A stretch of 64,000 nt of DNA from Hyalangium gracile (GTDB lineage Bacteria; Myxococcota; Myxococcia; Myxococcales; Myxococcaceae): contig NZ_JAHXBG010000037.1 of the NCBI RefSeq assembly GCF_020103725.1, positions 1-64,000 on the forward strand. The letters are read 5' to 3'. The notes under the pieces were generated by a model, which was given only the letters and a program-made list of their open reading frames with translations, was not told where the DNA came from and searched no databases. Of this stretch, positions 26,343 through 36,572 are shown one piece after another; the stretch's first letter is position 1; the number at the start of each line of letters is the position of its first letter. A program made the position numbers and the translations under genes.

Positions 26343-27209
26343 GTGAGAACTGCCCCCCACGTGGAGACCCCTCGGGGTCTCCTGCTGATTGCGGATCCCT
26401 CGCTCGCGCCGACGGTGCTCGAGCAGGTGGCCCCCACGCTCGCCAAGGGTGGGGTCTCCCTGTTCTCGAGCCTGGAGGACACGGGCGCCTCCTCGCGCGC
26501 CGCCGTGCGCCGGCTGGTCCTCTTCGACGGCCGGCTCACCCCCGCGCACGCGGAGCTGCTCAACCGCGATCCGCCCGCCCTGCTGCTCGCCACGCGCGCG
26601 CCGGAGAGCGGCCCCACGGAGTGGGAGGCGCAGATCCTCGGCTCGGCCATCAACGGTGGCATCCTGACGCCCGCGGGGCTGTCCGTGGCGCGCCAGAGCA
26701 TCCGGCGGCTGAAGGACGTGCAGCACGCCGCCGACGCCGCCTCCTTGATCGCTCAGGAGGCGGGGGGCTCCAAGACGGCCTCGCAGCTGGCCGCGGACGT
26801 GATGCACGAGCTGGCGGTCAACGCCTTGCTCGACGCTCCCGTGGACGCGCAGGGCCAGCCGAAGTATGCCCACCGTCGCACCGAGGTGCAGGAGGTGGAC
26901 GCGGAGGATGCGTGCGAGCTGGGGCTCGCGGTGGATGGCGCGCGCATCTATCTGGAAGCGGTGGATCGGTTCGGCCGGTTGACGACGGGACCGTTCGTCA
27001 GGGCGCTGGAGTCCTATGGCGGTCGGATCCAGGTCAATTCCTCGGGCGGAGGCGCGGGGCTGGGGTTGAGGAGGATGATCGAGCACAGCGACCTGATCGC
27101 CGTGCGTGTGGTGAAGGGGCGTGAGTCGCGTGTGCTTTGCGCGGTGGATCTGGGGGATGCGCGCCGCCGCGCGGCGCTCCCCAAGTCGCTGCTCTTCTGT
27201 ACGGAATGA
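26343..27209 (+). CDS. Pseudo-receiver fused to anti-sigma-type (RsbW-like) ATPase domain
   Basis: A 288-residue cytosolic protein. Residues about 10-120 have the alternating strand/helix pattern of a response-regulator receiver (GLLLIADPS, RRLVLFDGRL, ALLLATRAPE), but no clear phospho-acceptor set. Residues 140-270 carry GHKL ATPase boxes: N-box HELAVNALLDAP, a D-x-F-G-like box VDRFG, and G-box GGGAGLGLRRM. No DHp helix is present, so this is not a histidine kinase; the anti-sigma/RsbW class that phosphorylates STAS proteins fits best. It starts 6 bp after the receptor and overlaps the STAS-kinase gene (ATGA), implying coupled synthesis. Confidence 0.75.
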   Translation: MRTAPHVETPRGLLLIADPSLAPTVLEQVAPTLAKGGVSLFSSLEDTGASSRAAVRRLVLFDGRLTPAHAELLNRDPPALLLATRAPESGPTEWEAQILGSAINGGILTPAGLSVARQSIRRLKDVQHAADAASLIAQEAGGSKTASQLAADVMHELAVNALLDAPVDAQGQPKYAHRRTEVQEVDAEDACELGLAVDGARIYLEAVDRFGRLTTGPFVRALESYGGRIQVNSSGGGAGLGLRRMIEHSDLIAVRVVKGRESRVLCAVDLGDARRRAALPKSLLFCTE

Positions 27210-30200
27210 GGGTAGGGCCGGTGGAGAACCAGGGTTCTAACGCAATCATCAGCCAGTCCCGCGTGGGCAACATCACCCACGTGCGCATCTCTGGCGTCAT
27301 CGACGAGACGTTCCCGCTTACGTCCGCCTCCCCGGAGCTCACGGGGATCGTCATCGTCGATCTCGGCTGCGTCGACCGGATCAGCTCGTTCGGCGTGCGC
27401 AAGTGGATCGAGTTCGCGTCCAAGCTGCCTCAGGGCGCCATCAGCATGTACGTGGTCTACGCCCCGCCGGTGGTGGTGGACCAGCTCAACATGGTGGAGG
27501 GCTTCGCCGGCGTCACGCGCGTGCTCACGGTGCTGGCGCCGTACACCTGCAAGACGTGCAGCGAGGACCGGCTGCGCGCCGTCAACCTGATGGACGAGGC
27601 GCAGGTCATCTCCGAGAACCGCGCCCCCGAGCACAACTGCCCGGTCTGCTCCAACCCGCTGGAGTTCGCCGATCTGCCCGGCGAGTTCTTCGGCTACATG
27701 CGCCGGCAGAACCTGGGCACGGTGGATCCGGTGGTGATGCGCTACCTGCGCCTGGCCGTCGCCGCCGAGCCGCTGGACCTGCCCTCGCACCTGAAGGTGG
27801 TGCACGAGGACATCACCTACATCACCCTGGCCAGCGTCATCCGGGGCGATCTCAACGTGCGCCGGCTGGCCTCGGGCCTGGAGGGGCGCGTCGCGTTCGA
27901 CTTCGCGCACGTGGCCAAGGTGGAGCTGGAGGGCGTGCTCAAGCTGGAGCAGGTGCTCGAGACGGCCGCCAAGGGCGCGCAGGTGGTGCTCTGCCGCGTG
28001 CCGCCGGCGGTGCTCTCGCCGCTGGCCAAGTCCGGCAAGCCGCTGCCGGCGAAGATCCACTCGCTGTGGCTGCCGTACGAGTGCCAGAACTGCGGCCAGC
28101 TCCACCACCAGCGCCAGTACGCCTCCGGCTTCCTCCAGATGCTGAAGCAGAACGAGGGGCAGGAGCGCCCCTGCGTCGTCTGCGGCGGCGCCTCGCGGCT
28201 GGCCTCCATCCCCAACCTGCCGCAGTTCCTCGGCCGCGTCCCGCTCACGGACAAGCCGCTGGAGGACATCGAGGCGCTGGAGGCCCGCTCGAGGACGCAG
28301 TTCCTCTTCGGCTCCGCCAACGCCGAGCCCCAGCCCAACGCGGGCAACACGGACATCAGCGGCTCGCACGGCGGCAGCAAGCTGCAGATCATCCGCCGGC
28401 TGGGCCAGGGCGGCATGGCCGAAGTCTTCCTCGCCAAGCAGGTGGGCGTGAAGGGCTTCGAGAAGTTCCTGGTGATGAAGAAGATTCTCCAGCAGTTCGC
28501 GGAGAATCCCGAGTTCGTGGACATGCTCTTCGCCGAGGCCCGGGCGAACGCGCGTCTCACGCACCCCAACGTCGTGCAGACCTTCGACGTGGGCGTCACC
28601 GAGGGCGTGGCGTACATCCTCATGGAGTACGTGCGCGGCCCGGACCTGAAGCGGCTCATGAACGAGCTGCGCCGCAAGGGCCTGGCGCTGCCCATGGAGC
28701 ACGCGCTGCGCATCGTCGCGGAGACGGCCGCCGGCCTGCACTACGCCCACAGCTACGTGGATCCGGCCGGCAACGCGCACCCGGTGGTGCACCGCGACGT
28801 CAGCCCCCACAACATCCTCGTGTCGCTCGACGGCGCCATCAAGCTGAGCGACTTCGGCATCGCCAAGGTGCAGGGCGAGGATCACACCCAGGCCGGCGTG
28901 CTCAAGGGGAAGATCTCGTACATCTCCCCGGAGGCCGCCGCCGGCCGCCCGCTGGACGCGCGCAACGACGTGTTCGCCCTGGGCGTGGTGCTCTTCGAGC
29001 TGCTCACCGGCCAGCTGCCGTTCCGCCGCGATCACGACGCGGCCACGCTCAACGCCATCGTCCGTGAGCCGGCGCCCGTCCCCTCGCAGCTCAAGCCGAG
29101 CATCCCCCAGGACGTGTCGGACCTCATCCTCCGCGCCCTGGTGAAGGATCCGGCGCGGCGCACGCCCTCGGCGGCGGCGATGCGCGAGGAGATCGAGGCG
29201 GTGATGGCGCACCACCGGCTCAACTCCTCGCCGGCCGCGGTGGCCCAGTTCTTCAAGGACACGCTGGGCGACCGGCTGGTGGAGTACGCGCCCGCCGCGG
29301 CCTCCTCGCCGGGCTCCGGCTCGCACCCGCGCGTCAACCCCATCAGCGGGGAAGCCTCTCCGTCCGACACGCGCTCCTCGGCGCGGCTGGCGGGCTCGGC
29401 CACCAGCGCGGGCACCGGCTCGGGCTCACGCCCCAACCTGACGGGCTCCCGTCCAGGCACGGGCTCCGGGCCTCGTCCCAACCCGAACGCCACCCCCAGC
29501 CCCCGCACCGGGAGCGGCCCGCGTCCCATCCCCGCCTCGCAGCCGGCCCAGGCCGTCAGCGCCGAGGCCGCCAGCGCCGAGGCCGAGTCCGCCGAGCAGG
29601 CGAGGGTGAAGCAGGCCGCCGGACAGCAGGCCCGCCCCAGCCAGACGGGGCAGCGCCCCGCGCTCGGAAGCTCGGCCGGTGGGACGGCGCCGTCTCCCGC
29701 CTCGCGCTCCGGCATCCGCGCCATGCCCGCCGCGGGCGCGTCGCCCCAGGCCAGCGCGGCTCCGGCCGCCGTGGCGCAGGGGCCCACGACGGGGCAGCGG
29801 CCGTCGGTCGCGGCTCCAGCCGTTGCGGTGGCCACGGCCTCCGCTCCCCGCCCCAGCCAGCAGGTGGCCTCTCCGGCGCCGGTTCCGCGCAACTCCGCGC
29901 CCGTTCAGGCCCCCGCCGCGCAGTCCCGCGTCGCCATTCCGGCGGTCGCCCCGGCCCCTGTCCCCGTGGCTCCTGCGCCCGCGGTGACGCCTCCGCCGGA
30001 GCCCGAGCCCGCCCCGTCGCGCAACTGGCTCGTCATCGGCCTGGTGGCGCTGGTCGTCCTGGGCGGCGGTGGCTTCCTCGCCATGCGCATGCTGGGCGGC
30101 GGTGGCGGCATCGAGGTGGTCAACCTCGCCCCCGGTGAGAACCTCTACATCGGCGGGCTCCGGGTGGACGCCTCGCCGCGGATCGACAAGCCCGGCGCGC

Positions 30201-30526
30201 TGCTCGTCTCCACCGCCATGAAGGGCAGGCTGCACCGCTTCGGCAGGACGGAGCGTCGCGATCGCATCGACGCGCGGACCATCCCCGAGGCGGGCTCCCT
30301 GCAGGAGGGCAGCAAGGGCACGCTCAACGTCACGGGCGAGACCGAGGGCTGCAGCGTCCAGGTGGGCGGCCAGATGCTGCCGGGGAAGACGCCGCTCAAG
30401 GCGCCCATCGATGCCGGCAAGGAGCTGGACGTCGTCATCCTGTGTCCGGGCGGCGGCAGCAGCTCCGTGTCCGTGATGGCCGTGCCGGGCCAGGAAGTGG
30501 AGATCGCCCCCCGGACGGCGAAGTAG
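27206..30526 (+). CDS. STAS/zinc-ribbon/Ser-Thr kinase fusion with membrane anchor
   Basis: A 1106-residue multidomain protein. Residues 20-110 resemble a STAS domain (VIVDLGCVDRISSFGVRKW, with Ser60/61 at the phosphorylation position), followed by CKTC (115-118) and CPVC (145-148). A second STAS-like segment at 200-290 lacks the serine and is followed by CQNC (293-296) and CVVC (323-326). The kinase spans about 393-660: GQGGMAEVF, HRDVSPHN (529-536), DFG (549-551). A 270-residue Ala/Pro/Ser linker leads to a membrane segment near 940-963 and a PEGA-like end (CSVQVGGQMLPGKTP). The ATG at 27206 overlaps the ATPase stop. STAS plus kinase suggests it is both a partner-switch component and an effector. 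Confidence 0.88.
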   Translation: MRVGPVENQGSNAIISQSRVGNITHVRISGVIDETFPLTSASPELTGIVIVDLGCVDRISSFGVRKWIEFASKLPQGAISMYVVYAPPVVVDQLNMVEGFAGVTRVLTVLAPYTCKTCSEDRLRAVNLMDEAQVISENRAPEHNCPVCSNPLEFADLPGEFFGYMRRQNLGTVDPVVMRYLRLAVAAEPLDLPSHLKVVHEDITYITLASVIRGDLNVRRLASGLEGRVAFDFAHVAKVELEGVLKLEQVLETAAKGAQVVLCRVPPAVLSPLAKSGKPLPAKIHSLWLPYECQNCGQLHHQRQYASGFLQMLKQNEGQERPCVVCGGASRLASIPNLPQFLGRVPLTDKPLEDIEALEARSRTQFLFGSANAEPQPNAGNTDISGSHGGSKLQIIRRLGQGGMAEVFLAKQVGVKGFEKFLVMKKILQQFAENPEFVDMLFAEARANARLTHPNVVQTFDVGVTEGVAYILMEYVRGPDLKRLMNELRRKGLALPMEHALRIVAETAAGLHYAHSYVDPAGNAHPVVHRDVSPHNILVSLDGAIKLSDFGIAKVQGEDHTQAGVLKGKISYISPEAAAGRPLDARNDVFALGVVLFELLTGQLPFRRDHDAATLNAIVREPAPVPSQLKPSIPQDVSDLILRALVKDPARRTPSAAAMREEIEAVMAHHRLNSSPAAVAQFFKDTLGDRLVEYAPAAASSPGSGSHPRVNPISGEASPSDTRSSARLAGSATSAGTGSGSRPNLTGSRPGTGSGPRPNPNATPSPRTGSGPRPIPASQPAQAVSAEAASAEAESAEQARVKQAAGQQARPSQTGQRPALGSSAGGTAPSPASRSGIRAMPAAGASPQASAAPAAVAQGPTTGQRPSVAAPAVAVATASAPRPSQQVASPAPVPRNSAPVQAPAAQSRVAIPAVAPAPVPVAPAPAVTPPPEPEPAPSRNWLVIGLVALVVLGGGGFLAMRMLGGGGGIEVVNLAPGENLYIGGLRVDASPRIDKPGALLVSTAMKGRLHRFGRTERRDRIDARTIPEAGSLQEGSKGTLNVTGETEGCSVQVGGQMLPGKTPLKAPIDAGKELDVVILCPGGGSSSVSVMAVPGQEVEIAPRTAK

Positions 30527-30928: not shown

Positions 30929-31215
30929 CGCTGAGCCTCCCGGCTTCCTCGGCCACCGTAGGGGCCGGCTCCGACATGAAGGCGCGGCGCTACCTGGCGA
31001 GGGCGGAGGCCCGCGGCGCGGCCTCACGGCCCCACCCGCCGGGAACGTGTCGAATCCCCGGCCTGTTTTGGAGAGTAGGGGACGCGGAAGGTTCAGTGCC
31101 CGGCGGCCGAGGTTGCTCGCCTGCTCGCTGCCGTTGAGCCGACAAATGGGCTTTGCACCGAGATTGCATTGATTTGGTGGATTCCGAGGCTCCGCCTCCC
31201 TACATGGGAAGAGTC

Positions 31216-31743
31216 ATGTTGCAGCGCAGAAAGGTCATCGGGGTGATGGGCTCCGGGCGGGACGAGTACCGCGAGTGGGTGATCCCCCTGGCGCGGTGGA
31301 TCGCCGAGCACGGGTACGATCTGCTCACGGGCGCCGGAGAGGGGGTCATGCGCGTGGCGGCGGAGGCGTTCGTCGCCGTGCCTGGCCGGCGGGGCGTCTC
31401 CATCGGCATCGTCCCGGGCGAGCTGGTGGACGGGGTGTACAAGCCCCGTCCCGGCTACCCCAACCCGAGCGTGGAGCTGCCCGTCTTCACCCACCTGCCG
31501 CTGAGCGGAAACCAGGGCCAGGAAGTCATGAGCCGCAACCACCTCAACGTCCTGACGGCCCACGCCATCGTCGTCCTGCCGGGCGGCCCGGGCACTGCCT
31601 CCGAGGCCGCGCTGGCCGTGCGCTACCGCAAGCCGACCCTGCTCTTCGGGCCCGAGCGGGAATTCCGGCGTTTCCCGGAGCTGCTCGAGCGGACGGAGTC
31701 CCTGGAGCGAGTCTGCGACTGGCTGCTGGGTACGGTGCGGTAG
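31216..31743 (+). CDS. LOG/TIGR00725-like nucleotide-binding protein
   Basis: A 175-residue Rossmann-like protein: VIGVMGSG at the first loop, LLTGAGEGVMRVAAEAF, and the family signature LPGGPGTASE. These are shared by cytokinin riboside monophosphate phosphoribohydrolases (LOG) and the TIGR00725 molybdenum-cofactor-carrier-like group; the short length favours the latter. The ATG at 31216 is preferred because GGGAAGAG precedes it by three bases. Catalytic activity and substrate are not evident. The upstream 287 bp shows no gene. Confidence 0.8.
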   Translation: MLQRRKVIGVMGSGRDEYREWVIPLARWIAEHGYDLLTGAGEGVMRVAAEAFVAVPGRRGVSIGIVPGELVDGVYKPRPGYPNPSVELPVFTHLPLSGNQGQEVMSRNHLNVLTAHAIVVLPGGPGTASEAALAVRYRKPTLLFGPEREFRRFPELLERTESLERVCDWLLGTVR

Positions 31744-31860
31744 CCTCGGGCGCGCAAACCTGGCAGGTCGGCCGGGTGGACGTTCTGGTATGCTGAGTGG
31801 CGAACACTCCGCCGCTGTGTGTCTCTAGTGACACGGCATACCCCGGGCGTCGTTCCAGTC

Positions 31861-32262
31861 ATGATCAGTGCAGAGTACCCGCAGGCAAGTTGGTTCCTCG
31901 TGGTGTGCATCGGGGTGTTCCTGGTCGTCATCGCCCTGCCGCTGCTGTTGGTCCCGCTCACCTGGGCCCGGTGGTTCGGGTGGAAGCTGCCGGAGGGGAA
32001 CAACGATCTGACGGTGTACTTCGGGCGGTGCCTGGGCGCGACGGCGCTCACCCTCATCTTCGCGGTGGCGCACGGCATCCCGGATCCCAAGAGCCACCAC
32101 CTGCTCTTCGAGATCATCGCCATCGTCTCGGGGCTGATGATCCTCATCCACCTGTGGGGTGCCATCCGCAGGACACAGCCGCTCTCGGAGACGGTGGAGA
32201 TCGCCGTCTGGGTGGTGGTGTTCGCCTTCTCGTCCTGGATTCGCTTCTCCGTGCTGCCCTGA
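31861..32262 (+). CDS. Small four-helix integral membrane protein, unknown function
   Basis: About 133 residues with four hydrophobic segments (SWFLVVCIGVFLVVIALPLL, the LGATALTLIFAVAH region, IIAIVSGLMILIHLWG, and IAVWVVVFAFSSW). The frame is open further upstream to 31819, and the start is uncertain because no strong ribosome-binding site is seen. It lies 41 bp before the giant cyclase/ATPase gene on the same strand and may be its membrane partner. No family is recognised. Confidence 0.65.
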   Translation: MISAEYPQASWFLVVCIGVFLVVIALPLLLVPLTWARWFGWKLPEGNNDLTVYFGRCLGATALTLIFAVAHGIPDPKSHHLLFEIIAIVSGLMILIHLWGAIRRTQPLSETVEIAVWVVVFAFSSWIRFSVLP

Positions 32263-32303: not shown

Positions 32304-35300
32304 GTGAACGAGCGGATGACGCTGGCCTCACTGGCGCCCTATGTCCCGGCGGCGATCGTCCGCCGGCTGGCGCAGCTGGGAGAGGCGCCCCTGCCGCCCG
32401 TGGAGCCCGCGCGTGGCGCCAGCCTGCTGCTCGACATCGCCGGCTTCACCCCCATCGTCGTCTCGCTGAGCGGCGCGGGCCCCCGGGGCATCGACGCGCT
32501 CCAGCGCCTGCTGTCCAGCTACTTCACGGAGATGATCGAGGGCATCCGGGACTACGGCGGGGACATCTACCAGTTCGCCGGGGACTCGGTGCTGGCCCTC
32601 TTCGAGTCGGAGCGCGGCGAGACCGACGCGGACGTGGTGCGGCGCGCGGCGGTCTGCGGCACCCACGTGCAGAAGAAGCTGGCGCGCTTCGGCAGCCTGG
32701 AGCTGCTGGGCCAGCGCTTCACCCTGTCCTCGCGCATCGGCGTGGGCTTCGGTGAGTGCCACCGCATCATCCTGGGCGAGCAGGAGCAGTGGCTGCAGTC
32801 GGGGCTCATCGGCCAGCCGCTGGAGCAGACGGTGGCGGCGGAGAAGAAGGCGGCCGGCGGCGAGGTGATCCTCAGCCGCGAGGCCCGCGCGCTGCTGGCG
32901 TCCGACGCGGAGGGCGAGGCGCGTGACGGCTTCCTGCGCTACCTGCCCCCGGTGCACCCCACGCCGCTGCCGCCCCGCCCGCTGCCGGTGGGCGGCGCCC
33001 GGGCGCTGGGGCAGTGCGCGCTGCTGCTGCACCCGGAGCTGTTGCGCAAGGTCATCACCACGCACCAGGGCTTCGCCGGAGACTTCCGCGACATCACCTG
33101 TGTCTTCGTGCGCGTGGGCACCCAGCACTCCCACGCCGACGCGGAGGCGTTCGTCCGGGAGATGAACGCCTTCTTCACCTTCGCCCAGAAGGAGAGCAGC
33201 GCGCACCGCGGCGTGCTGCTGATGCCGGACTTCACGGACAAGGGCAACGTCCTCTACTTCGTCTTCGGCGCGCCCACCGCGCAGCAGAACAAGGAGCTGC
33301 TGGCCTGCCACTTCGCCAAGAAGCTGCTGCACGGCCTGGCGATGTTCCCCTTCATCGAGGATCTGCGCATCGGCGTGGCCACGGGCCCGGCGTACTGGGG
33401 CGAGATGGGGGCGCCGTCGCGCAAGGGCTACTGGGCGCTGGGCGAGGTGGTGAACATCGCCGCCCGGCTGATGGCGCACGCGAAGGAGCCCGGCGTCCAG
33501 GTGGACGCGAACACCCAGCGGAAGGTCCACCACGAGTTCTCCACGCTGCACGTGGAGGACGCGAAGCTCAAGGGCGTCTCGCGCGTGGTGCCCGTCTACC
33601 GCGTGCAGACCGAGTCGCGGCAGGTGCGCAGCCTGCTCATCAAGGGGCAGGGGGAGATCGTCGGCCGCCGCAAGGAGCTGGACACGCTGCGGCAGGCGGT
33701 GGAGGAGTCCATCGCCGGGGCCGGGCGCGTGTGCGTCATCTCCGGCGAGGCGGGCATCGGCAAGTCGCGCCTGTCCAGCCGGCTGGTGGAGCTGGCCGAG
33801 GCGCACGGCGCCTTCACGCTGTACGGCATCTGCTACTCGTACGAGACGTTCACCCCGTACTTCCCCTGGAAGGAAGTGCTGGTGCAGCTCTTCCAGCTGC
33901 GCGAGGGGGACGGGCCGGAGGCGCGGCTGGAGCGCATCCGCCGCGTCTTCGAGGGGCTGGAAGGCGTGGGGCCGGAGTGGGTGCCGGTGCTGGCGGGCAT
34001 CATGGGCCTGCCGGTGGTGGAGGACGAGCTCACCGCCTCGCTGGACGCGCGCCAGAAGAACCAGCAGGTGTTCCACATCATCCACCAGCTGCTGGTGCGG
34101 GTCTCCGAAGTCACCCCACTGCTGCTCTTCTTCGAGGATCTGCACTGGGCGGACCGCATCTCGCTGGATCTGATCGAGTACGTGGCCGCGCGCATCGCCC
34201 CGCTGCGCAAGACGCTGCTGGTGACGATGCGGCCAGGGGACGCGCTGCGCTCGCTGTACGATCTGGACACCTTCCGCCTGGTGGAGCTGTCCCAGCTCGA
34301 CGAGGAGGACACGCGCGAGCTCTTGCGGCTGCACCTGAAGCTGTCTCCGCCGAACACGGCCCTGGAAGACATGCTGATGGCCAAGGTCCAGGGCAACCCC
34401 TTCTTCATCGAGTCGCTGGTGGAGGGGCTGGTGGAGGAGGGGCACCTGGAGGAGTCCACCGCGGGCGGGCGGGTGCTGCGGCGCAGCCTGCAGAGCATCC
34501 GGATTCCGGACTCCATCCAGGACGTGGTGCTCAACCGCATCGATCTGCTGCCGGAGCTGGAGAAGCTCATCGTCAAGGTGGCGTCCGTGGTGGGGCGCAT
34601 CTTCTCGCTGGACGCCGTGCACGCGCTGCTGCCAGAGGGCATCGACCTGGACGAGGCGAAGCGGGCCATGGCGGCGCTCACCGGCCTGGGGATGATCCTC
34701 CTGGAGATGGAGGAGCCCTACACCTGCCTCTTCAAGCACATCGTCATCCGCGACGTGGCCTACAACACGCTGCTGGTGTCGGGGCGCGAGGATCTGCACC
34801 GGCGCCTGGCGCGCTTCCTGGAGGAGAAGGCCGCCGACACCGTCGTCAAGCCGGCGGGCATCCTCGCCTACCACTACCTGGCGGGGAACGACGAGGCGAA
34901 GGGGCTGGAGTACACGCTGATGGCCGCGCGGGCCGCCAAGCGGCAGTACGCCAACGAAGAAGCCATCCACCACTACAACAAGGCCCTGGAGGTGCTCTCC
35001 ACCTCGGAGACGCTGGATCGGGCCGTGGTGCTCGAGGACACGCGCCAGGTGATGCTGGAGCTGGCGCAGACGCTGCTGCAGGACGGCAACTACGACGCCG
35101 CCATCCAGATGTTCGAGCAGCGCCTGTCGGAGGAGGACGCGGCGGACCTGCGCGCGGAGATCCACGTCGGCCTGGGCCGCGCCTTCCAGGAGAAGGGCGC
35201 CACCGGCCGCGCCATCCAGGAGCTGGAGAGCGCGCTGAAGCTCATGGGGCGCGCGCCGCCGCGGACCCAGGCGGGGCTGGTGCTGCGCACGGCGTTCAAC

Positions 35301-36572
35301 ATGGGCATCCACCTGCTGAGCCGGGCCTTCCCGTGGATCCTCCGGCCGGTGCCGGCCCACAAGCTGGCCCTCTTCATCAAGCAGCTCAACACGCTCATCT
35401 CGCTGATCAAGATCTACTACTTCGTGGATCTGTCCAAGCTCACCTGGGCCACCCTGGTGTCGCTCAACATGGCCGAGCGCTCCCGCACGGACTACGGGCT
35501 GAGCCAGGCCAGCGGCTACTACGCCACCATGCTCTTTGGCGCCGGGCTGCTGAAGCGCTCGCTGCGCTACCTGACGCGGGCGCTGGAGTTCGGCAAGCGC
35601 TCGCGCGACGTGGTGGCGGAGGGCATCGCGCTCAGCCGCCTGGGCATCAACGCCCTGTTCAACAACGATCCGGAGCGGGCCGCCAGGCTGGAGGAAGAGG
35701 CCATGGCCATGCTCCGCGCGGCGGGCGAGCGCTGGGAGGTGCAGACCGCGACCATGATCGTCGCCACCAGCCACTTCACCTCCGGGCGCTTCGAGATCGC
35801 CGAGAAGTACTACCGGGACATGGGGGCGCTGGGCGTGGAGCTCAACGCGCTGATGCACCAGGGCTGGTCCCACGCCTGGGTGCCCATGTGCCGCTACCTG
35901 CGAGGCGACGGCGACGTGGCCGAGCTGTGCGCGGAGGTGGAGAAGGGGCTGAACATCAGCATCCAGGTGGATGATCTGGCCAACCAGTGCGCGGCGCTCA
36001 ACCACCTGGCCAACATCTCCGTGCGCGAGCACCGGGTGGAGGAGGCCGCGCAGGTGGCCGTGCGCGCCTTCAAGACGTTGTGGAAGTACCAGGTGCTCGT
36101 GCCGTTCCTGCAGATCGGCCTGGTGGACGCGGCGGAGGCCGCGCTCTTCGCGCTGGAGGAGGGCGCCACCTCGGTGCCGCGCGCGAAGCTCCTGCGCATC
36201 GTCCGGCTTGCCACCTTCAAGGCGCGGGCCCTGTCGCGCATCTACCCGTACCTGAAGGGGCCCTCGCTTCGGGTGACGGCGCGGGCCCTGAAGCTGCGCA
36301 AGGGCCTGGGCGCCGCCGAGCCCGTCTTCCTGGAGGCCATCTCCGTGCTGGAGAAGGGGCCCAACCGCTGGGAGCTGGGCGTGGCGTGCTTCGACGCGGC
36401 CGTCGCCCTGCCGCACCGCCGCTCGCAGCTGCTCGCGCGGGCCCGGGAGATCTTCACCGCCATCGGCGCCAAGGCCGAGCTGCGCCGCGTGCAGCGGATG
36501 ATGCCGCTGCTCGCCTCCCCCATGGCGCTGGCTCCCTCCACCTCCGCCTCAACTGAGCCGCTGCGGCTCTAG
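32304..36572 (+). CDS. Soluble-adenylyl-cyclase-like protein: tandem cyclase domains, ATPase and TPR region
   Basis: A 1422-residue cytosolic protein. Cyclase domain 1 (about 38-200) has both metal aspartates, D44 in LLDIAGFT and D94 in FAGDSV, but no NxxxR pair. Domain 2 (about 262-435) lacks both aspartates (R270, N315) but has MPDFTDKGN and NIAAR (N384, R388). Together they should build one active site, as in mammalian ADCY10. An AAA/NACHT-like ATPase follows with Walker A GEAGIGKS (481-488) and LLFFEDLHWAD, then about 700 residues of TPR-like helices. The GTG at 32304 follows a G-rich site. The likely product is cAMP; regulators are unknown. The 3' end overlaps the opposing gene by 24 bp. 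Confidence 0.9.
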   Translation: MNERMTLASLAPYVPAAIVRRLAQLGEAPLPPVEPARGASLLLDIAGFTPIVVSLSGAGPRGIDALQRLLSSYFTEMIEGIRDYGGDIYQFAGDSVLALFESERGETDADVVRRAAVCGTHVQKKLARFGSLELLGQRFTLSSRIGVGFGECHRIILGEQEQWLQSGLIGQPLEQTVAAEKKAAGGEVILSREARALLASDAEGEARDGFLRYLPPVHPTPLPPRPLPVGGARALGQCALLLHPELLRKVITTHQGFAGDFRDITCVFVRVGTQHSHADAEAFVREMNAFFTFAQKESSAHRGVLLMPDFTDKGNVLYFVFGAPTAQQNKELLACHFAKKLLHGLAMFPFIEDLRIGVATGPAYWGEMGAPSRKGYWALGEVVNIAARLMAHAKEPGVQVDANTQRKVHHEFSTLHVEDAKLKGVSRVVPVYRVQTESRQVRSLLIKGQGEIVGRRKELDTLRQAVEESIAGAGRVCVISGEAGIGKSRLSSRLVELAEAHGAFTLYGICYSYETFTPYFPWKEVLVQLFQLREGDGPEARLERIRRVFEGLEGVGPEWVPVLAGIMGLPVVEDELTASLDARQKNQQVFHIIHQLLVRVSEVTPLLLFFEDLHWADRISLDLIEYVAARIAPLRKTLLVTMRPGDALRSLYDLDTFRLVELSQLDEEDTRELLRLHLKLSPPNTALEDMLMAKVQGNPFFIESLVEGLVEEGHLEESTAGGRVLRRSLQSIRIPDSIQDVVLNRIDLLPELEKLIVKVASVVGRIFSLDAVHALLPEGIDLDEAKRAMAALTGLGMILLEMEEPYTCLFKHIVIRDVAYNTLLVSGREDLHRRLARFLEEKAADTVVKPAGILAYHYLAGNDEAKGLEYTLMAARAAKRQYANEEAIHHYNKALEVLSTSETLDRAVVLEDTRQVMLELAQTLLQDGNYDAAIQMFEQRLSEEDAADLRAEIHVGLGRAFQEKGATGRAIQELESALKLMGRAPPRTQAGLVLRTAFNMGIHLLSRAFPWILRPVPAHKLALFIKQLNTLISLIKIYYFVDLSKLTWATLVSLNMAERSRTDYGLSQASGYYATMLFGAGLLKRSLRYLTRALEFGKRSRDVVAEGIALSRLGINALFNNDPERAARLEEEAMAMLRAAGERWEVQTATMIVATSHFTSGRFEIAEKYYRDMGALGVELNALMHQGWSHAWVPMCRYLRGDGDVAELCAEVEKGLNISIQVDDLANQCAALNHLANISVREHRVEEAAQVAVRAFKTLWKYQVLVPFLQIGLVDAAEAALFALEEGATSVPRAKLLRIVRLATFKARALSRIYPYLKGPSLRVTARALKLRKGLGAAEPVFLEAISVLEKGPNRWELGVACFDAAVALPHRRSQLLARAREIFTAIGAKAELRRVQRMMPLLASPMALAPSTSASTEPLRL

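Follow-up and report, generated by a model that had tools for sequence, protein, structure and literature searches.

The gene at positions 32304–36572 of the forward strand of the 64,000-nucleotide window, the whole stretch of DNA that was analysed, encodes a 1422-residue tandem class III cyclase with a STAND-type ATPase and a TPR tail. The protein probably is an active nucleotide cyclase with a single composite site, most likely producing cAMP, gated by its ATPase and TPR part and not switched by bicarbonate; we assign this reading a probability of about 0.58.

The open reading frame of the cyclase is uninterrupted and starts at GTG 32304 or ATG 32316. Its C1 domain, delimited by alignment and the structure model, spans residues 36–196 (32409–32891, forward strand). 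The C2 domain, residues 255–440 (33066–33623, forward strand), is additionally identified by Pfam, since Guanylate_cyc matched residues 313–425 (E 1.8e-8), in C2 and not in C1; the lack of a Pfam match in C1 counts against the active-cyclase reading. The STAND-type ATPase occupies residues about 450–700 (33651–34403, forward strand), and the position of the AAA_16 match within it, at residues 452–633 (E 1.6e-23), bears out the C1–C2–ATPase order given in the preliminary description. The ATPase contains the motifs GEAGIGKS, starting at residue 481, and FFEDLHWAD, starting at residue 609, which we take to be Walker A and a Walker B-like motif, respectively. The tail of TPR and helical repeats, matched by TPR_12 (E 3.8e-12), TPR_1, and other profiles, has approximate bounds at residues 871–1422 (34914–36569, forward strand).

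The two cyclase domains carry complementary half-sites, as had been described. C1 has the metal aspartates D44 and D94 and lacks NxxxR, whereas in C2 the metal positions are occupied by R270 and N315, and the motifs FTDKGN (310–315) and NIAAR (384–388) are present. Residues D44, D94, R270, K313, N315, N384, and R388 are invariant in all 34 aligned rows of the cyclase clade, a count that excludes the split gene L036 and L074, which is truncated at a contig end. The equivalents of human sAC residues D47, D99, N412, and R416, with roles as listed in Table 1 of PMC12867704, are kept in 36 of 36 clade rows. R144 of the cyclase lies at the pyrophosphate position, K144 of the human enzyme, and is arginine throughout the clade (36/36). 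The position of human K340 is lysine in 36/36 clade rows and in 79/80 rows of the GTDB set, which comprises the best 80 of 427 relatives ranked by likeness to the Myxococcaceae protein L063 and is hence biased. The cyclase thus has the class III hallmark of two metal aspartates and an Asn/Arg transition-state pair at one interface, together with the DKG loop in C2 and the degenerate second site of sAC-like tandem cyclases.

The AlphaFold2 model of residues 1–442 has a pLDDT of 93.1 and a pTM of 0.92; it is ligand-free, and its input alignment consisted of distant relatives 22–32% identical to the cyclase, which may have imposed family features on the model. Aligned with VIA-align, the model superposes on human sAC as a single C1/C2 pair (Z 42.5, 427 aligned residues, rmsd 2.9 Å), and on transmembrane cyclases with Z-scores of at most 35.1. 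A control from Chloroflexota (L085, 29% identity) resembles sAC in fold to at least the same degree (Z 44.4). The structure alignments covered 67 of 77 GTDB loci, with ten dropped by hand; L096, L134, and L155 were also excluded. Because C1 and C2 superpose on human sAC as one pair, the head-to-tail composite active site anticipated in the preliminary description is well supported by the model.

The four residues that distinguish ADCY10 proper, the adenine-reading K334 and T405 and the bicarbonate-sensing K95 and R176, are all replaced in the cyclase. Q90 and V177 lie at the positions of K95 and R176, and glutamine and valine are found there in 36/36 clade rows. Since the equivalents of K95 and R176 are absent from the clade, a bicarbonate response is not expected from the sequence. 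A passage of PMC12867704 indicates that these positions vary in nonmammalian animal sACs too. In the base pocket, M307 replaces K334 (methionine in 36/36 clade rows) and W377 replaces T405, where the clade has serine in 28/36 rows and tryptophan in 8/36, including the cyclase's own lineage. For comparison, K334 and T405 are kept together in 61 of the best 80 of 427 GTDB tandem rows, and all four regulatory and adenine residues of the human enzyme occur in five of these best 80 of 427, four of them from Acaryochloris. With M307 and W377 in the pocket, nucleotide might no longer bind, or a different base might be recognized, which counts against the active-cyclase reading.

It is possible, but we consider it distinctly less probable, that the composite site binds nucleotide as a sensor for the ATPase and TPR part and yields no cyclic product. 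The replacement of both adenine-reading residues and the very long branch of the clade fit such a pseudo-cyclase, as does the match of the model to 6yii, a class III cyclase-like ATP-binding protein (Z 25.6). Inactive cNMP cyclase domains occur in bacterial NTP-dependent systems, according to a passage of PMC7159879. In two of three ortholog pairs, moreover, the catalytic part does not evolve more slowly than the remainder. However, the metal aspartates and the Asn/Arg pair are invariant in the clade and the pyrophosphate position is always arginine, and a pure binder need not retain both the metal and the transition-state residues.

The dN/dS ratio (NG86) of C1 and C2 combined is 0.29 relative to the nearest ortholog and 0.42 and 0.57 relative to two others. 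The rest of the protein has ratios of 0.18, 0.54, and 0.48 in the same pairs, so that the catalytic part evolves faster in the first and third (0.29 versus 0.18 and 0.57 versus 0.48), an observation that counts against the active-cyclase reading, and slower in the second (0.42 versus 0.54).

A cyclase whose substrate is not ATP but, for instance, a pyrimidine nucleotide, with the base pocket narrowed by tryptophan in the cyclase's lineage, is a doubtful alternative. The substitutions by M307 and W377 speak for it, as does the presence of tryptophan at residue 372 or 377 in 29/34 clade rows; a passage of PMC11224242 describes how clade D Pycsar cyclases recognize UTP by bulky residues in the pocket, and another in PMC7159879 links the superfamily of the neighbouring SLOG protein to nucleotide-derived signals. 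Against it, the serine that prevails in the clade is conservative with respect to threonine, 5/34 rows have no tryptophan at either 372 or 377, the six matches to PycC are weak and partial, and a scan of eight neighbours revealed no CNBD. It is slightly more doubtful still that the pocket was rewritten, from K334 to Met and from T405 through Ser to Trp, such that a non-adenine cyclic nucleotide is made or read by a three-gene module with the SLOG protein, in a nucleotide-handling role, and the membrane protein in fruiting myxobacteria. That the protein is a bicarbonate-responsive bacterial counterpart of ADCY10 is very improbable: fold, half-sites, and domain order agree, and a passage of PMC3918592 places sAC closest to bicarbonate-stimulated cyanobacterial and Stigmatella cyclases, but the K95 and R176 equivalents are missing in every clade row, the similarity to the human enzyme is the lowest of all tandem rows compared, and human sAC lies elsewhere in the trees.

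The relationship of the cyclase to human sAC is real but not special. Human ADCY10, whose PDB chains end after C2, is the top PDB match for both domains, in register (phmmer, E 1.4e-17), and the best PDB chain other than ADCY10 has an E-value of 7.7e-9. Chance resemblance was ruled out by the match of both domains in register, the invariant residues, and a dN/dS below 1. Other bacterial proteins match human sAC much better than the cyclase does (E 1.3e-52 for Acaryochloris L090 and 6.8e-49 for L063, versus 1.4e-17), and the cyclase is 25.0% identical to it over 304 aligned positions. Each of the 36 clade rows has lower similarity to the human protein than any of the 93 other bacterial tandem rows compared; the GTDB and Myxococcaceae sets overlap, as L112 is identical to L069 and L146 to L067. 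The preliminary description regarded the protein as a special bacterial counterpart of ADCY10, which the phylogeny that it proposed does not support: human sAC falls among ordinary bacterial tandem cyclases and not with the cyclase clade, and in this form the refuting condition named there, a closer relation to two-domain bacterial cyclases of the ordinary kind, was borne out. Grouping human sAC with the clade is disfavoured (AU p 0.039), a marginal value obtained with one eukaryotic sequence and long branches on both sides. In the carefully searched tree of 29 hand-picked rows, the human protein groups with L158 and L130. The 75-row tree was a quick one, in which 55 of 75 GTDB rows were retained after rows at least 70% identical to an earlier row had been dropped; L096, L134, and L155 were excluded from both trees. 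A unique counterpart of ADCY10 is rejected. Proteins with the order C1–C2–ATPase are widespread across bacteria, bacterial relatives of sAC are already in print, and the cyclase is among the least ADCY10-like of them. A 2004 title by Kobayashi reportedly refers to a conserved domain structure of bicarbonate-regulated sACs from bacteria and eukaryotes. No title in the open-licence literature searched names the clade or its gene order.

The cyclase clade was found in 53 of 195 Myxococcota genomes and in every searched genome of five genera, which argues for a core gene and not a patchy island. A defence system was considered, for which the PycC matches are weak and partial. A viral copy was considered as well, and a scan of viral contigs with P0001, sensitive to close relatives alone, had no match. 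Directly upstream of the cyclase, after a 41-nt gap, lies the small membrane protein that had been noted before (31861–32262, forward strand, 133 residues), with about four hydrophobic helices recognized by eye, a conserved ATG start at 31861, and an alternative GTG at 31819. It is preceded by the gene of a SLOG-family protein (31153–31743, forward strand), identified by Pfam LDcluster4 (PF18306, E 1.2e-24) and a PGGxGTxxE stretch. The membrane protein may recruit the cyclase, as the preliminary description suggested. Its gene is directly upstream of the cyclase in 50/53 genomes, and the SLOG gene precedes it in 35 of the 38 genomes read. Genomes G054 and G070 keep the cyclase and lack the membrane protein, which is internally shortened in G071, and the distant G156 has the membrane protein with neither cyclase nor SLOG within the 15 kb read. 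This loss or shortening in 3/53 cyclase genomes, together with G156, counts against the favoured reading.

Based on the directly observed anatomy, residue conservation, distribution, and gene order, and on the predicted domain pair, a mechanism of the active cyclase can be put forward. Within the sAC-like tandem cyclases of bacteria, the protein would be a derived relative. The two metal aspartates of C1 and the catalytic Asn/Arg pair of C2 would together form one working site where the halves of the pseudo-heterodimer meet, and the mirror second site would be dead. The site may convert NTP to a 3′,5′-cyclic nucleotide, most likely cAMP, with activity and product deduced from the residues; selectivity for adenine would be reduced, since neither of the residues with which human sAC reads adenine is retained. 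Gating would probably occur when the C-terminal part, made up of the STAND-type ATPase and the TPR tail, binds a partner or ligand, and bicarbonate would not switch the enzyme. The fixed order of SLOG, small membrane protein, and cyclase genes belongs to one lineage of large-genome Myxococcaceae, in which any function of the two neighbours would be conjectural.

The active-cyclase reading corrects a natural guess, as a bacterial sAC-like cyclase need not be a bicarbonate sensor. A lineage with intact catalytic residues and an altered base pocket and regulatory site offers a test of substrate choice in sAC-type enzymes, and better bacterial counterparts of ADCY10 were located, mostly in Acaryochloris, among the best 80 of 427 GTDB relatives. 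The conserved order of the three genes constitutes a module that is accessible to experiment in bacteria of the Myxococcus type.

Among known systems, the Pycsar cyclase PycC has the class III cyclase fold in common with the protein, and for the cyclase PADLOC returned six weak and partial PycC matches (best E 1.1e-10, best stretch 353–395) plus one match each of TPR and RtcR type; the SLOG and membrane proteins had no match. The cyclase–AAA–TPR part of TOMM_kin_cyc (TIGR03903) can be aligned to residues 252–907, but the score of 237.6 bits is below the cut-off of 705.75, and C1 stands in place of the N-terminal kinase. A protein from the same genome (L002), judged by eye to be of the kinase–cyclase–ATPase kind, is 54% identical to the cyclase from residue 380 on. 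The sAC-like tandem cyclases of Myxococcaceae (L063), Chloroflexota (L085), and Acaryochloris (L090), among others, share features with the cyclase: the C1–C2–AAA_16 order was present in 5/5 proteins scanned, complementary half-sites were seen by eye in 18 bacterial tandem rows, and the catalytic residues are shared by nearly all of the best 80 of 427 (D47 in 78/80, D99 in 79/80, N412 and R416 in 80/80). In the stretches read, no SLOG or membrane-protein partner lies beside these other tandem cyclases. The human ADCY10 core likewise has a C1–C2 pseudo-heterodimer with the aspartate pair in C1 and the DKG loop and N...R pair in C2, followed by a P-loop/STAND region, as stated in a passage of PMC12802110, where the word TPR does not occur; the cyclase differs from it in having Q/V for K95/R176 and M/W for K334/T405.

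The tandem cyclase is encoded by an open frame of 1422 residues on the forward strand (32304-36572). The protein consists of a C1 domain (about residues 36-196), a linker, a C2 domain (255-440), an AAA_16 ATPase (452-633 according to Pfam), and a TPR/helical tail. The residues named in the preliminary description are correct: D44 and D94 in C1, R270 and N315 at the metal positions of C2, and the motifs NIAAR (384-388) and FTDKGN (310-315). Pfam recognised C2 and missed C1. A phmmer search of the PDB matched both domains, with human soluble adenylyl cyclase (sAC, ADCY10) at the top (E 1.4e-17; best chain of any other protein 7.7e-9). Identity to human sAC is 84 of 303 positions of the aligned core in the phmmer alignment and 76 of 304 in a wider MAFFT alignment.

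The AlphaFold2 model of residues 1-442, built from 68 sequences, has a pLDDT of 93.1 and a pTM of 0.92. The first 24 ranks of a Foldseek search with this model are human sAC entries, and VIA-align superposes the two with a Z of 42.5 at 2.9 Å over 427 residues, the best transmembrane cyclase reaching 35.1. Based on the quality of the model and these matches, C1 and C2 are predicted to form a head-to-tail pair of the sAC type with one composite site, as the preliminary description had proposed. A control model of a Chloroflexota cyclase (L085), for which alignment rows common to both proteins were used, matches human sAC at least as well (Z 44.4, 29% identity).

The metal residues D47 and D99 and the catalytic N412 and R416 of human sAC are conserved without change in all 36 rows of the clade formed by the window protein and its orthologs; the K144 position is occupied by arginine. 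Residue roles follow Table 1 of PMC12867704, and that of T405 follows PMC12250328. The two bicarbonate residues are gone from all 36 rows (K95 to Gln, R176 to Val), and so is the adenine-reading K334, replaced by Met. The T405 position carries Ser in 28 rows and Trp in eight, namely the window protein, its six congeners, and the ortholog from G042. Next to the base pocket, Trp and Ser nearly trade places between residues 372 and 377 (33417-33434). Among 34 aligned rows, the pairs are W/S in 23, S/W in five, A/W in one, L/S in three, and T/S in two. Trp thus usually lines the pocket loop at either of two places (372 in 23/34, 377 in 6/34), and 28 of the 29 Trp-bearing rows have Ser at the other.

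Bacterial counterparts of sAC are not a new idea, since reviews already state the kinship: PMC3918592 places cyanobacterial and myxobacterial (Stigmatella) cyclases nearest to sAC, PMC3085406 names (cyano)bacterial cyclases as the closest, and both cite Kobayashi 2004 for the conserved domain structure in bacteria. Neither this derived clade nor its pocket or gene order was found in the open-licence papers searched. A GTDB scan by family alignment gave 427 relatives, the best 80 of which come from Chloroflexota, Cyanobacteriota, Planctomycetota, Pseudomonadota, Acidobacteriota and other phyla. The order C1-C2-ATPase is common, because Guanylate_cyc and AAA_16 models match all five relatives scanned (four GTDB loci and the non-clade Myxococcaceae cyclase L063) and the frames of 65 of the best 80 span at least 1278 residues. 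The presence of a TPR part is less sure: of the five, only L090 (Acaryochloris) has a TPR match passing 1e-5.

The clade is more distant from human sAC (21.7-25.0% identity in 36 rows) than are the best 80 GTDB relatives (27.5-36.7%) or 13 other Myxococcaceae tandem cyclases (26.5-34.4%). Human sAC matches L090 with an E of 1.3e-52 and L063 with 6.8e-49 (phmmer). In a careful tree of 29 rows, a branch of length 3.61 separates the clade from the rest (support 100/100), and the human protein is placed with L158 and L130 (support 92/85 and 81/87). When the human protein is constrained to group with the clade, the likelihood drops by 11.6 log units (AU p 0.039), a marginal result involving two long branches and one eukaryotic row. 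The best 80 relatives keep K334 in 61 cases, T405 in 69, K95 in 65, and R176 in seven. Five tandem cyclases, L087, L088, L090 and L091 from Acaryochloris and L142, retain all four; judged by these residues, they make stronger candidates for bacterial counterparts of ADCY10 that have a bicarbonate site.

A profile built from the clade only found members in 53 of 195 Myxococcota genomes at 712-826 bits, with one in two pieces (505 and 154, G027); the top non-clade match scored 176.5. In five genera, all the genomes scanned have a member: the window's genus (7/7), g5 (2/2), g6 (16/16), g8 (1/1), and g19 (27/27). The ortholog L036, in a single-contig genome of 10,260,756 bases (G038), lies in two frames, reflecting a frameshift or a sequencing error. 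The window's own 11.7-Mb genome contains 31 Guanylate_cyc matches. One paralog there (L002, G000:C5:397935-400934) has a kinase, recognised by eye, and a single cyclase domain in place of C1-C2. From residue 380 on, it is 54% identical to the window protein, as though the N-terminal part had been swapped. At the positions expected to hold N and R, the cyclase domain of L002 carries R and W.

The cyclase gene is preceded by genes for a SLOG protein (PF18306, E 1.2e-24) and a small membrane protein. In 31 of the 36 clade loci the SLOG gene lies upstream; in the other five (L047, L076-L079) the sequence stops before reaching its position. Longer stretches reveal it for two of these five, and G070 and G071 also have it, giving 35 of the 38 genomes read; the sequence of the remaining three ends early. 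It was found at none of 13 non-clade Myxococcaceae loci, where flanks span only a few hundred bases, and at none of the best 80 of 427 GTDB loci, many of them incomplete. The SLOG family itself is common, with three matches in the window's own genome and at least one in 13 of the 14 control genomes.

The membrane protein is present at 35 of 36 clade loci. Its profile matches 53 of 195 genomes: 51 clade genomes, G156, and, weakly, G190. Comparison of coordinates shows a full-profile match adjoining the cyclase in 50 of the 53 clade genomes. G054 and G070 do not have the membrane protein, and that of G071 is missing its middle (residues 42-96); all three retain SLOG and cyclase. All eight 19-kb stretches keep the order SLOG, membrane protein, cyclase, and seven have a radical SAM gene nearby. 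The homolog in the distant Myxococcota genome G156 (L168, G156:C13:12050-12430, 151.5 bits) has neither SLOG nor cyclase within the surrounding 15 kb. Elsewhere in the window, 27137-30526 encodes a Ser/Thr kinase (Pkinase E 8.3e-42) with a STAS-like N-terminal part (STAS 1.4e-6).

The invariant catalytic set and the C1+C2 dN/dS below 1 (0.29, 0.42 and 0.57 in three pairs by the crude NG86 method) favour an enzyme or, at a minimum, a metal-nucleotide site. The catalytic part is less constrained than the rest of the protein in two of three ortholog pairs by the same crude method, which counts against this reading. The loss of the K95 and R176 equivalents argues against bicarbonate gating. By analogy with its family, the STAND-type ATPase and TPRs may gate the cyclase. 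In human sAC, a STAND domain containing a P-loop is predicted, the truncated form is about three times as active as the full-length one, and none of the nucleotides tested had a specific regulatory effect (PMC12802110). ATP is the likeliest substrate by descent, but with the changed base pocket the product may differ. A base other than adenine is possible, since bulky pocket residues define the use of UTP in clade D Pycsar cyclases (PMC11224242).
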